Source: Alkalicoccus chagannorensis DSM 18086
Lineage (GTDB): Bacteria; Bacillota; Bacilli; Bacillales; Salisediminibacteriaceae
Direction: 5' to 3'
Assembly: GCF_000429725.1 (NCBI RefSeq)
Contig: NZ_AUCK01000029.1
Location: forward strand, 1-49,428
DNA length: 49,428 bases
Shown here: positions 8,151 through 49,428 of the stretch, piece by piece
Numbering within the stretch: the first letter of the stretch is position 1
Layout of the letters: every line of letters starts with the position of its first letter
The notes under the pieces: generated by a model
Databases searched by the model: none
Seen by the model: the letters and a program-made list of their open reading frames with translations, nothing else
What the model was told of the DNA's origin: nothing
Position numbers and translations under genes: made by a program

Positions 8151-8314
8151 GTGATCCTCCTTTCAAGCTGTTTTCTCTATTGTACAAAATATTCAGATAT
8201 TTTAAAAGCATTTCAGCCTATATTTTCTGAGAGATTTTCTACGGATGGTGGTTTTCAGCAGGAAAAAGGAAGGAATAGGAGAAGGTAGTACGAAGAAATA
8301 AAGGAGGGATTCGG

Positions 8315-9007
8315 TTGCGCGATGTGATAGAACAATTGAAAGAAGTGGTCATGGCGATCCTTCCTCTTGCAGTGGTGATCATCATTCTTCAATATACGCT
8401 GATTGGACTGCCGCCGGACATCTTTCTCCGCTTTATTATCGGCGTCATCATGGTTGGATTCGGCCTTTTTCTCTTTCTCGTCGGGGTACATATCGGCCTG
8501 CTCCCTATTGGAGAGATGATCGGATCCGCCCTGCCGAAAACGAAAAAAGTGTGGCTGATTCTAGGAACCGGTTTTGTGCTCGGTGTCGTCGTGACCATTG
8601 CAGAACCGGATGTCAGGGTGCTCGCCTCTCAGATTGACGATGTTTCCGGAGGAGATATTTCCAATCTCGTGCTGATTTACTCCGTAGCTCTCGGTGTTGG
8701 ATTTTTCGTGTTGACCGCCATGGCAAGGACGGTGTTTAATATACCGTTGAAGTACCTGCTTGTCGGCGGCTATTCGCTCGTCTTTCTGATGGCACTGGTG
8801 ACACCGGCTAACTATGTTCCCATCTCGTTTGACGCCGGCGGTGTAACCACCGGTCCGATGACGGTGCCGTTTATTCTCGCTCTCGGCGTAGGCGTAGCCT
8901 CTGTCCTCCGGGGGAAATCCTCTACGAGTGATGGATTCGGGCTCGTTGCCCTTGCCTCCATTGGTCCGATTCTGGCCGTGATGGTGCTGGGGGTGATTTA
9001 CGGATGA
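8315..9007 (+). CDS. DUF1538 membrane protein, first of a pair
   Basis: The product is 230 aa and almost wholly hydrophobic, with about six or seven membrane segments. I recognise the DUF1538 family from the AEPDVRVLA motif (97-105) and the conserved FDAGGVTTGPMTV segment (172-184), which is followed by a small-residue helix, VGVASV. The start is TTG at 8315, fixed by AAGGAGGG eight bases upstream. Its stop overlaps the next gene as ATGA. The biochemical function is unknown to me. Conserved charged and glycine-rich motifs in membrane helices and pairing with a P-II-like gene suggest a regulated transporter or channel; this is inference. Confidence 0.85.
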   Translation: MRDVIEQLKEVVMAILPLAVVIIILQYTLIGLPPDIFLRFIIGVIMVGFGLFLFLVGVHIGLLPIGEMIGSALPKTKKVWLILGTGFVLGVVVTIAEPDVRVLASQIDDVSGGDISNLVLIYSVALGVGFFVLTAMARTVFNIPLKYLLVGGYSLVFLMALVTPANYVPISFDAGGVTTGPMTVPFILALGVGVASVLRGKSSTSDGFGLVALASIGPILAVMVLGVIYG

Positions 9008-9735
9008 TTGGGATCATGACAGAAGATATTGGTCATGTCATTTATGAAGTGGCTATGGCCGTCATTCCGCTGCTCTTGTTTTTTCTCGTATTTCAGTTCT
9101 TTTTTCTAAAACTGGAAAAAGAGAAGCTGCTCAACATTTTTGTCGGCCTGCTTTTCACTTTTGCGGGGCTGGTCCTTTTTCTCCAGGGAGTGGAAGTCGG
9201 TTTCTTCCCGGCAGGCGAAGCCATCGGAGAAATACTTGGTGAAAGGGAAAACACGATGATCATGCTGCCCGCCCTCGGTTTTTTATTCGGACTCGTAGCA
9301 ACCTTTGCTGAGCCCGCAATCCGCATCCTCAATCACGAGGTCGAAAAAGTGACGGCCGGCTCGATCTCCAAAAACGTCATGCTCATTACGCTTTCTCTCG
9401 GTGTCGGAGGGGCTATTGCCCTGTCTTTATTCCGGATCACGGCAGGTTTTCCTCTTTGGTACCTGATTCTTCCAGGATATATTCTCGCTTTTGCGCTTGT
9501 CTTCATCTCCAGCGACCGGTTTATTTCCATCGCTTTTGATGCCGGGGGTGTAGCTACAGGTCCAATGACCGTCACCTTCATTATGGCTATCAATGTCGGT
9601 GTCGCTTCCGTCACTGAAGGCAGAGATCCGCTGCTCGATGGGTTCGGGATGATCGCTCTTGTCGCATTGACGCCCATACTGGCAGTACTCATACTCGGCT
9701 TGATTTTTCAGAGAAAGGAGCGGATGGACGCGTGA
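9004..9735 (+). CDS. DUF1538 membrane protein, second of a pair
   Basis: This 243 aa protein is a paralogue of the gene just upstream. It repeats the same landmarks, AEPAIRIL at 102-109 and FDAGGVATGPMTV at 178-190, in the same order, and has a similar number of membrane segments. The ATG overlaps the upstream stop as ATGA, so translation is probably coupled. The C-terminus RKERMDA is short and charged. Two related half-size subunits suggest a heterodimer or pseudo-twofold assembly. Its stop overlaps the start of the P-II-like gene as GTGA. Confidence 0.85.
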   Translation: MIGIMTEDIGHVIYEVAMAVIPLLLFFLVFQFFFLKLEKEKLLNIFVGLLFTFAGLVLFLQGVEVGFFPAGEAIGEILGERENTMIMLPALGFLFGLVATFAEPAIRILNHEVEKVTAGSISKNVMLITLSLGVGGAIALSLFRITAGFPLWYLILPGYILAFALVFISSDRFISIAFDAGGVATGPMTVTFIMAINVGVASVTEGRDPLLDGFGMIALVALTPILAVLILGLIFQRKERMDA

Positions 9736-10436
9736 AACAGCTTCGCAGGGATCATAAACTGGTTGTGACGATTGTAAAAAAAGGCCGCGCTAAAAAAGTG
9801 ATGAAAGCGGCAAAAGACGCCGGGTCAGAAGGTGGTACAATTCTGCTCGGATCCGGTGTCGGGATTCATGAGAAGAAAAAAATATTCGGGATCGACGCCC
9901 TTCACGAGAAAGAACTCGTTCTGAATCTCGTTCCGGAGGACATTCTCCCCGGACTTCTTGTACAAGTACAGAATCGAGCCCGACTGCACGAACCCGGCAT
10001 GGGCATCGGTTTCATCATCGATATCAAAAAGACCATCGGCATAGCTCATATGACGTATGAAGAAAATGAGGAGGTGCTGGAAGACATGACAGATAACCTG
10101 TCCCACCGAGGATTCGATTTAATCATTACGATTGTGAACAAAGGAGACGCAGGCAAGGTCATCGATGCTTCGAATAGAGGCGGTGCAGAAGGCGGCACGG
10201 TCATGAACGGGCGCGGCTCCGGTATTCATGAAAAAGCGAAATTATTCTCTATTCAAATCGAACCGGAAAAAGATGTCGTTTTAACGTTGATCAAGCGGGA
10301 GAAAACGCGGGATGTATTAAAAGCGATTGAAGAAGACGCCCACATTAATGAACCCGGACGCGGCATCTCGTTTGTGCTGCCGGTAGAGGAAACCGTCGGG
10401 ATTCACCACCTGCTGGAAGAAGAGAAGCAGGAATAG
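9732..10436 (+). CDS. Tandem P-II-like (GlnB-like) signalling protein
   Basis: The 234 aa product contains two P-II-like domains, at about residues 9-107 and 128-228. Both have the same order: a strand (VVTIV / IITIV), a GxEGGT nucleotide-loop motif, GIHEK, and an EPGxGI C-loop motif. Classical P-II proteins are ~112 aa trimers that bind ATP or ADP and 2-oxoglutarate and control transporters by docking on them. Here the T-loop region looks shortened, and no uridylylated Tyr is evident. GTG 9732 overlaps the stop of the DUF1538 gene, so the three genes are translationally coupled. I infer that it gates the DUF1538 pair. The ligand is unknown. Confidence 0.85.
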   Translation: MKQLRRDHKLVVTIVKKGRAKKVMKAAKDAGSEGGTILLGSGVGIHEKKKIFGIDALHEKELVLNLVPEDILPGLLVQVQNRARLHEPGMGIGFIIDIKKTIGIAHMTYEENEEVLEDMTDNLSHRGFDLIITIVNKGDAGKVIDASNRGGAEGGTVMNGRGSGIHEKAKLFSIQIEPEKDVVLTLIKREKTRDVLKAIEEDAHINEPGRGISFVLPVEETVGIHHLLEEEKQE

Positions 10437-47621: not shown

Positions 47622-47706
47622 TGGTAGCGAAGGTGGGATTCGAACCCACAAGCCCGAAGGCACGGCATTTTGAGTGCCGCGTGTATGCCAGTTCCACCAC
47701 TTCGCC
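47622..47706 (-). tRNA. tRNA-Leu(CAA)
   Basis: An 85-base class II tRNA with a long variable arm, anticodon loop CTCAAAA, encoded CCA end and a G-T pair at 1:72. Confidence 0.95.
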
Positions 47707-47720
47707 CTGTTTTATAAAGT

Positions 47721-47810
47721 TGGTGCCGAGGGCCGGACTCGAACCGGCACGGTAGTATACCTACCGCAGGATTTTAAGTCCTGTGTGTCTGCCAATTCCA
47801 CCACCCCGGC
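47721..47810 (-). tRNA. tRNA-Leu(TAA)
   Basis: A 90-base class II tRNA with anticodon loop CTTAAAA, a long variable arm and an encoded CCA. Confidence 0.96.
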
Positions 47811-47843
47811 AGGGACTCTCCCATGTAACGCATCAAATATGTA

Positions 47844-47917
<74 letters not shown>

Positions 47918-47923
47918 TCAACA

Positions 47924-47998
47924 TGGAGCGGGAAACGGGATTCGAACCCGCGACCCCCACCTTGGCAAGGTGGTGCTCTACCACTGAGCTATTCCCGC
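47924..47998 (-). tRNA. tRNA-Gly(GCC)
   Basis: Anticodon loop TTGCCAA, seven-pair acceptor GCGGGAA/TTCCCGC, encoded CCA. Confidence 0.96.
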
Positions 47999-48003
47999 AG
48001 GAA

Positions 48004-48078
48004 TGGCAGGGCTAGCAGGATTCGAACCTGCGAGTCACGGAATCAAAATCCGATGCCTTACCGCTTGGCTATAGCCCT
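48004..48078 (-). tRNA. tRNA-Gln(TTG)
   Basis: Anticodon loop TTTTGAT, weak A-T first acceptor pair as in other Gln tRNAs, encoded CCA. Positions 27 and 43 are T-T, a mismatch at the top of the anticodon stem. Confidence 0.93.
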
Positions 48079-48089
48079 ATTATATAAGA

Positions 48090-48166
48090 TGGGGCGGCTG
48101 ATGGGAATCGAACCCACGAATGCCGGAATCACAATCCGGTGCGTTAACCACTTCGCCACAACCGCC
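48090..48166 (-). tRNA. tRNA-His(GTG)
   Basis: Anticodon loop TTGTGAT. The 5' end carries the extra G(-1) opposite C73, the histidine identity feature, giving eight acceptor pairs. CCA is encoded. Confidence 0.96.
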
Positions 48167-48179
48167 AGGATGAGTGGAA

Positions 48180-48264
48180 TGGTGGAGGGGGAGAGATTCG
48201 AACTCCCGAACCCGAAGGAGCGGATTTACAGTCCGCCGCGTTTGGCCAACTTCGCTACCCCTCC
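48180..48264 (-). tRNA. tRNA-Tyr(GTA)
   Basis: Class II tRNA with anticodon loop CTGTAAA, a long variable arm and an encoded CCA. Confidence 0.96.
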
Positions 48265-48320
48265 ACGCGTCTAATCCGTTATTTTACCTTTGTACTGCTT
48301 GTATGGAGCAAAAGATAAAA

Positions 48321-48396
<76 letters not shown>

Positions 48397-48400
48397 ATAG

Positions 48401-48476
<76 letters not shown>

Positions 48477-48486
48477 GTTATGTAAT

Positions 48487-48563
<77 letters not shown>

Positions 48564-48573
48564 GCGGTATGAA

Positions 48574-48649
48574 TGGTGGAGGATGACAGGCTCGAACTGC
48601 CGACCCCCTGCTTGTAAGGCAGGTGCTCTCCCAACTGAGCTAATCCTCC
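48574..48649 (-). tRNA. tRNA-Val(TAC)
   Basis: Anticodon loop CTTACAA, acceptor GGAGGAT, encoded CCA. It is the first tRNA after the 5S gene. Confidence 0.96.
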
Positions 48650-48658
48650 ATATAGAAA

Positions 48659-48774
<116 letters not shown>

Positions 48775-48780
48775 TATTGT

Positions 48781-48855
48781 TGGTGACCCGTACGGGATTC
48801 GAACCCGTGTTACCGCCGTGAAAGGGCGGTGTCTTAACCACTTGACCAACGGGCC
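48781..48855 (-). tRNA. tRNA-Glu(TTC)
   Basis: Anticodon loop CTTTCAC, encoded CCA, located between 23S and 5S. Confidence 0.96.
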
Positions 48856-48860
48856 TTATC

Positions 48861-48953
48861 TGGCGGAGAGCGAGGGATTCGAACCCTCGGTACGGGATAA
48901 AACCGCACACACGATTTCCAATCGTGCTCCTTAAGCCACTCGGACAGCTCTCC
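48861..48953 (-). tRNA. tRNA-Ser(GGA)
   Basis: Class II tRNA of 93 bases, anticodon loop TTGGAAA, long variable arm, encoded CCA. Confidence 0.96.
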
Positions 48954-48960
48954 AGATTGA

Positions 48961-49035
48961 TGGCTCCACCGGTAGGATTCGAACCTACGACCCATCGGTT
49001 AACAGCCGATTGCTCTACCACTGAGCTACGGTGGA
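48961..49035 (-). tRNA. tRNA-Asn(GTT)
   Basis: Anticodon loop CTGTTAA, acceptor TCCACCG/CGGTGGA, encoded CCA. It is the first tRNA after the 23S gene. Confidence 0.96.
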
Positions 49036-49150
49036 ACGGGAAAAGTAAAGAGGTTATGTTCCTTCTAAGTAAAATCTATCCTCTCAAAACTGGATAACGC
49101 GCTGCGAATCGTGCATGATCGGTGTCTTAGTCTTCCGCGTCCAAAATCAC

Positions 49151-49428
<278 letters not shown>

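Follow-up and report, generated by a model that had tools for sequence, protein, structure and literature searches.

P-II proteins are taught as sensors of nitrogen and carbon. A locus of Alkalicoccus chagannorensis DSM 18086 raises the question of what such a protein does directly behind two membrane proteins of the family DUF1538. The locus lies within a stretch of 49,428 nucleotides (assembly GCF_000429725.1, contig NZ_AUCK01000029.1; hereafter the window), for which an earlier, sequence-only reading had proposed an undescribed transport system gated by a nucleotide-sensing pair of fused P-II domains. Open reading frames (ORFs) and Pfam matches confirmed the three genes of that reading at 8315-10436, all on one strand and overlapping stop-to-start, with ATGA at 9004-9007 between the genes of the two DUF1538 proteins (A and B) and GTGA at 9732-9735 between B and the gene of a two-domain P-II protein. 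Altogether, DUF1538-DUF1538-P-II is a real, conserved and probably functional unit, and on balance we favour the view that the operon encodes a monovalent cation/proton antiporter of the UmpAB type together with a dedicated, divergent P-II regulator, with the full mechanism outlined below. The transporter family as such is already known; the P-II partnership would be a new form of P-II transporter control. The operon comprises:

8300..8307, + strand: Shine-Dalgarno sequence AAAGGAGG, 7 bases 5' of the TTG start (direct reading)
8315..9007, + strand: subunit A, first DUF1538 protein, UmpA position; TTG start, 230 aa, seven predicted transmembrane (TM) segments, N-in/C-out by charge bias
9004..9735, + strand: subunit B, second DUF1538 protein, UmpB position; ATG start, 243 aa, seven predicted TM segments, N-out/C-in by charge bias
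9732..10436, + strand: two-domain P-II-like protein, proposed regulator; GTG start, 234 aa
10471..10502, + strand: perfect 13-bp hairpin 3' of the operon, terminator-like with a T-poor tail (direct reading, not listed in the scan)

It is the single operon of this type in the genome, and the relatives closest to A (87% identity) are found in Alkalicoccus records and one Bacillus sp. metagenome-assembled genome (MAG).

The linkage between DUF1538 and P-II was nearly absolute. Public genomes gave 220 relatives of A, and at the 80 best of these a P-II gene was located directly downstream (80/80 loci), so the arrangement is not due to chance; like the sets of 29 and 30 loci below, these are the highest-scoring matches and not a random sample. 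With the phyla of the draws read from record titles, DUF1538 was detected in 139/398 genomes belonging to the window's phylum; P-II followed in 28/29 best-match loci, the remaining one stopping at a contig edge. A draw around a Pseudomonadota MAG gave DUF1538 in 126/398 genomes and P-II in 30/30 best loci, and a draw around a Desulfurivibrio genome gave DUF1538 in 11/247, ten with P-II and one whose contig ends 180 bp after the gene. On plasmids, P-II was present at 7/7 loci read (of nine matches), including those of Methylocystis and Chelativorans. Over all loci with a DUF1538 ORF, P-II was found in 197/209 (174 distinct P-II sequences; the locus count includes operons seen twice). Nine of the 12 loci without P-II have less than 300 bp of room downstream; the others are a DUF1538 gene broken by stops, a match of 35 residues beside a contig end, where the following 1.4 kb hold no P-II, and a locus in which the P-II gene sits 1.4 kb further on. 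The special P-II gene follows every intact DUF1538 case that is legible far enough downstream.

The reverse direction was covered by searching 249 genomes from the phylum of the window with a profile of the linked-type P-II (the genomes are assumed to be the first 249 of the 398-genome draw; the printed identifiers agree, and 111 without a match are not listed). Strong matches (E-value below 1e-15; the gap between strong and weak spans 8.7e-19 to 1.2e-11) occurred in 84 genomes, of which 83 contain DUF1538. Both were present in 83 genomes, apart in 1+1 and neither in 164; one of the separate cases has a broken DUF1538 without such a P-II, the other a 50-residue piece of P-II without DUF1538. 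With 80/80 and 197/209 loci, and 83 genomes holding both against 2 holding one, the conserved unit of transporter and P-II proposed from the sequence was borne out, as was its co-occurrence in other genomes.

What, then, do the membrane proteins do? Both belong to DUF1538 (PF07556), A with an E-value of 1.6e-76 and B with 2.5e-74 (256.8 and 249.6 bits, cut-off 22.6), and the domain spans nearly the entire length of each. They are 40% identical across 229 residues and share, as first noticed in the sequence-only reading, the motifs AEP and FDAGGVxTGPMTV. According to the accessible text of Meng et al. (2017, PMC5484666), an overlapping DUF1538 gene pair of Halomonas zhaodongensis, UmpAB, is a heterodimeric Na+(Li+,K+)/H+ antiporter. 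As described there, growth of the antiporter-less E. coli KNabc at 0.2 M NaCl needs co-expression of UmpA and UmpB, neither alone being sufficient, and UmpB by itself helped growth at lower NaCl; vesicles with UmpAB showed antiport of H+ against Na+, Li+ and K+, and a UmpA-UmpB heterodimer in the membrane was seen by co-immunoprecipitation. The label 'undescribed' therefore fails for the membrane pair, since UmpAB is a characterised DUF1538 pair. Like A and B, UmpAB consists of two adjacent homologous DUF1538 genes with a stop/start overlap and seven predicted TM segments each; unlike the operon studied here, its 4.2-kb clone is described, in the text available, as carrying three complete ORFs and a truncated one, with no P-II gene among them, and A and B score far below the NCBIfam equivalog cut-offs (130.3 bits against 490 for UmpA, 112.6 bits against 500 for UmpB). 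By these scores, A and B are members of the DUF1538/UmpAB family, not equivalogs.

Text searches for 'P-II' or 'PII' gave no match in the text of PMC5484666, 'P-II' was absent from the matches listed for papers naming UmpA, and the accessible text of PMC7221264 contains DUF1538 and PII once each (text match only). The family is named as a salt or pH marker in the parts available of PMC10030654, PMC12093952 and PMC13255231; PF07556 occurred by name in one paper of the searched literature, in a table. No description of a DUF1538-P-II link was found in that literature, subscription papers and preprints being outside its scope.

Seven TM segments per subunit were obtained from hydropathy over 149 A and 149 B sequences and from the model helices of a natural A-B fusion, in which the broken TM3 and the broken TM6 were taken as one segment each. 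By the positive-inside rule, loops rich in Lys and Arg mark the inner side. The Lys+Arg bias pointed to the side of the N-terminus and of loops 2-3, 4-5 and 6-7 in 149/149 A sequences, and to the side opposite that of A in 148/149 B sequences, with one tie; when the inner loops alone were counted, it was kept in 146 A (3 ties) and 145 B (3 ties, 1 opposite). Because the bias is opposite, this rule suggests that A (N-in/C-out) and B (N-out/C-in) probably enter the membrane the opposite way round and build a single inverted-repeat transporter. Seven TM segments per subunit and the existence of natural A-B fusions agree with this. The model of such a fusion from a relative (497 aa) reached a predicted local distance difference test (pLDDT) of 90.9 and a predicted template-modelling score (pTM) of 0.90. 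Together with the 40% identity and the opposite charge bias it backs the pseudo-symmetric membrane pair suggested earlier. When compared with solved structures, including NCX, EAAT, DASS and other inverted-repeat folds, none stood out.

Ion exchangers use charged, broken helices within an inverted repeat. In the fusion model helices are broken at or beside the Glu-Pro and the Asp-x-Gly-Gly motifs of both halves, and Glu-Pro (TM3) and Asp-x-Gly-Gly (before TM6) are conserved to at least 94% in both halves (298 rows). The corresponding sites in the window are:

8603..8608, + strand: Glu97-Pro98 of A ('AEP'); E in 98% and P in 99% of 149 A sequences, adjoining a helix break in the relative's model
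8828..8866, + strand: FDAGGVTTGPMTV of A, holding Asp173; Asp in 99% of 149, model helix break just after
9310..9315, + strand: Glu103-Pro104 of B ('AEP'); E in 99% and P in 100% of 149 B sequences
9535..9573, + strand: FDAGGVATGPMTV of B, holding Asp179; Asp in 100% of 149 (rounded down)

Some records depart from the usual composition. In a Chelativorans plasmid (L115, 4540-4812) the DUF1538 match is limited to the C-terminal part of A, and B and P-II look complete. Two Desulfobacterota genomes (L130, L131) encode a fused DUF1538 protein of ~700 aa whose matches exceed the usual length; behind it comes a protein of 369-381 aa in which our own profile found one to three P-II-like stretches (Pfam: none for L131). 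Five unannotated phage-collection records (MT835770.1, MT839021.1, MT837261.1, MT835548.1, OR847559.1) encode DUF1538 and are possibly bacterial DNA.

The P-II protein matched PF00543 in two stretches (2.5e-13; 50.7 bits, cut-off 25):

9756..10043, + strand: P-II domain D1, the less conserved paralogue
10119..10403, + strand: P-II domain D2, the more conserved paralogue

A model of the tandem protein (pLDDT 78.5, pTM 0.70) consists of two ferredoxin-like domains and matches GlnK structures, including GlnK from the AmtB complex, with a TM-score of about 0.7 by target length. For a residue comparison, 266 DUF1538-linked P-II domains were aligned with 26 canonical P-II proteins from the same genomes, with attention to positions 51, 88, 90, 101 and 103, which we take to be nucleotide-binding/uridylylation residues of canonical P-II. 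Lys90 was found in 0/266 linked domains against 26/26 canonical ones and Asp88 in 1/266 against 26/26, whereas Tyr51 (3/266 against 19/26) and Arg101 (4/266 against 19/26) are weak marks, each being present in only 19 of the canonical set; Arg103 remained in 51/266 against 23/26. Gly35 (259/266), Lys58 (225/266) and Thr29 (219/266) were retained. D1 and D2 of the window protein both lack all five residues, with Met/Arg at 88, Ile/Ile at 90 and Ala/Ile at 51, and so differ from canonical GlnB/GlnK in Asp88 and Lys90 as well as in the T-loop Tyr51. Since Lys90 and Asp88 are lost, classical nucleotide sensing by the linked P-II proteins is doubtful on residue grounds. A gate that plainly senses nucleotides, as first proposed, is hard to maintain, the absence of Asp88 and Lys90 from both window domains being half of what that proposal had itself named as its refutation.

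In a tree of 116 rows and 119 columns, with many unresolved forks and some long branches, the linked domains form a branch apart from the 26 canonical P-II proteins (Shimodaira-Hasegawa-like approximate likelihood ratio test, SH-aLRT, 99). Where a species has two separate P-II genes, the first of them clusters with D1 (SH-aLRT 98; 41 rows: 22 D1, 9 first genes, 10 singles), and D2 falls with the second separate genes, outside the D1 group. D1 and D2 therefore look like old paralogues occurring fused or as separate genes. For the fused chain a stoichiometry puzzle had been raised; it is real, but softer than it seemed, as both domains also occur as separate genes and the fused chain could therefore simply tie two trimers together. 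A strict match of two membrane halves to two P-II domains did not hold up, since in many species the same halves go with a single P-II domain, to which a CBS-pair protein is often added.

In such single-P-II operons the next gene often encodes a CBS-pair protein of ~135 aa. It was present in 17/21 wide regions from the Pseudomonadota and Desulfobacterota draws and overlaps the P-II stop in 15, and Pfam confirmed two CBS stretches in 6/6 proteins:

L250, 4079-4489, - strand: CBS-pair gene
L251, 3835-4257, + strand: CBS-pair gene
L245, L249-L268: CBS-pair genes in 15 more regions among these

CBS follows 37/64 single-P-II operons vs 0/95 operons with two P-II domains, each distinct operon being counted once if 300 bp or more were available behind P-II; many are seen for just 300-360 bp, and some 'single' ones carry a weak second P-II-like gene. 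As CBS pairs commonly bind adenine nucleotides, the nucleotide input may, by analogy, sit in the CBS protein in single-P-II lineages.

Some other neighbours resemble ion-transport genes. In six Planococcus loci (L024-L028, L043, upstream of about 5250) the strand of the operon also carries Mrp/Mnh antiporter genes 5' of it; examples from 3/6 of these loci matched the Pfam families MnhB, Oxidored_q2 (MnhC-like), Proton_antipo_M (MnhD-like) and MNHE, and in one locus examined the MNHE gene ends ~750 bp before A. A potassium-channel-like gene adjoins the operon in divergent genomes (L187, 2547-3669; L180, 1-1080; L185, 2590-3669), the L187 copy matching Ion_trans and, weakly, a cNMP domain.

In the mechanism that we propose, A and B as homologous seven-TM halves of opposite insertion would form one inverted-repeat transport unit, with the membrane Glu (AEP) and Asp (FDAGG) of each half, at the helix breaks, as likely ion/proton sites. 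The two-domain P-II protein would sit on the cytoplasmic face and switch or brake the exchange through its loops, modelled after the action of GlnK on AmtB and of SbtB on SbtA, and its ligand or input would be other than the classical ATP/ADP/2-oxoglutarate set. P-II control appears so far limited to transporters able to act as trimers (2023 review, PMC10710835, as far as its text is accessible), so a trimer of A-B heterodimers is predicted, on which three fused P-II chains would provide one D1 trimer and one D2 trimer.

The operon thus has a dedicated P-II gene linked to transporter genes, as in the GlnK-AmtB and SbtB-SbtA kind of system. With AmtB-GlnK it shares the combination of a membrane transporter and an operon-linked protein of P-II fold, but AmtB is unrelated to DUF1538, GlnK has one domain per chain, and canonical P-II proteins of this kind keep Asp88, Lys90 and mostly Tyr51 and Arg101, which nearly all the linked ones lack. 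SbtA-SbtB is similar in that a transporter coupled to ions has a divergent P-II-like protein of its own; to our knowledge, SbtA-SbtB has neither a second P-II domain nor a CBS partner. SbtB acts in the AMP-bound state, according to the available part of the review (PMC10710835). The multisubunit Na+/H+ antiporter Mrp/Mnh, a gene neighbour in the six Planococcus loci, is alike in its likely physiological role and different in its protein families and in having no P-II.

Could the pair transport something else, such as an organic or inorganic anion or an osmolyte, so that UmpAB cation/proton exchange was a side activity of overexpression? The function does rest on a single study of a distant DUF1538 pair, the carriers include rumen and gut clostridia, and the P-II-bound transporters named in the accessible review text carry ammonium, nitrate, urea and bicarbonate (PMC10710835). 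Exchange of Na+, Li+ and K+ was, however, measured in UmpAB vesicles (PMC5484666, text as available), membrane Glu and Asp are conserved in both halves, and Mrp antiporter genes lie nearby in Planococcus; we regard another main substrate as unlikely. The P-II protein, for its part, might be a subunit that serves the structure or assembly of the antiporter and has no small-molecule ligand, as its obligatory linkage to DUF1538 and the loss of Asp88 and Lys90 throughout the linked domains would allow. Yet Gly35 and Lys58 are still conserved, and the CBS-pair gene overlapping P-II in many single-P-II operons hints at small-molecule input, which makes a purely structural role somewhat less likely still.

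By far the least probable explanation is that the P-II gene serves as the cell's nitrogen regulator in a GlnB/GlnK role and stands beside DUF1538 only secondarily. A PF00543 search of the A. chagannorensis genome (E-value up to 0.001) found no P-II domains other than D1 and D2 and none of GlnK type above threshold, and the same genome has an ammonium transporter, which would suit this explanation. The transporter is on another contig (G000:C1:268326-269525), and the linked proteins occupy a branch separate from canonical P-II, with Lys90 in none, Asp88 in one and Tyr51 in three of the 266 domains. Moreover, strong canonical P-II matches were also present in 14/18 genomes tested, and a linked-type P-II without DUF1538 occurred once in 249 genomes, as a fragment. 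The preferred reading remains that of an antiporter with its own P-II regulator. A wider formulation, which we consider possible though less than probable, is that of a widespread, undescribed regulatory class, in which cation/proton antiporters of oppositely inserted homologous halves would be gated by a P-II branch without classical nucleotide sensing, with two P-II paralogues or a single P-II plus a CBS-pair protein as alternative modules and P-II reading ions, pH or a metabolite.

Should P-II regulate the exchanger, a very common transporter would be under P-II control, P-II signalling would be tied to Na+/K+/pH balance, and a role would be explained for genes which carry no annotation beyond 'P-II family nitrogen regulator' in the plasmid records read. 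If A and B do face opposite ways, this would also explain why UmpA and UmpB are fully functional only together. That the pairing is kept in many unrelated bacteria hints, at the level of gene order, at a novel control of ion exchange.

Elsewhere in the window, the minus strand at 47625-49428 carries a dense block of 14 tRNA genes, alongside 5S rRNA and the 23S rRNA 3' end.
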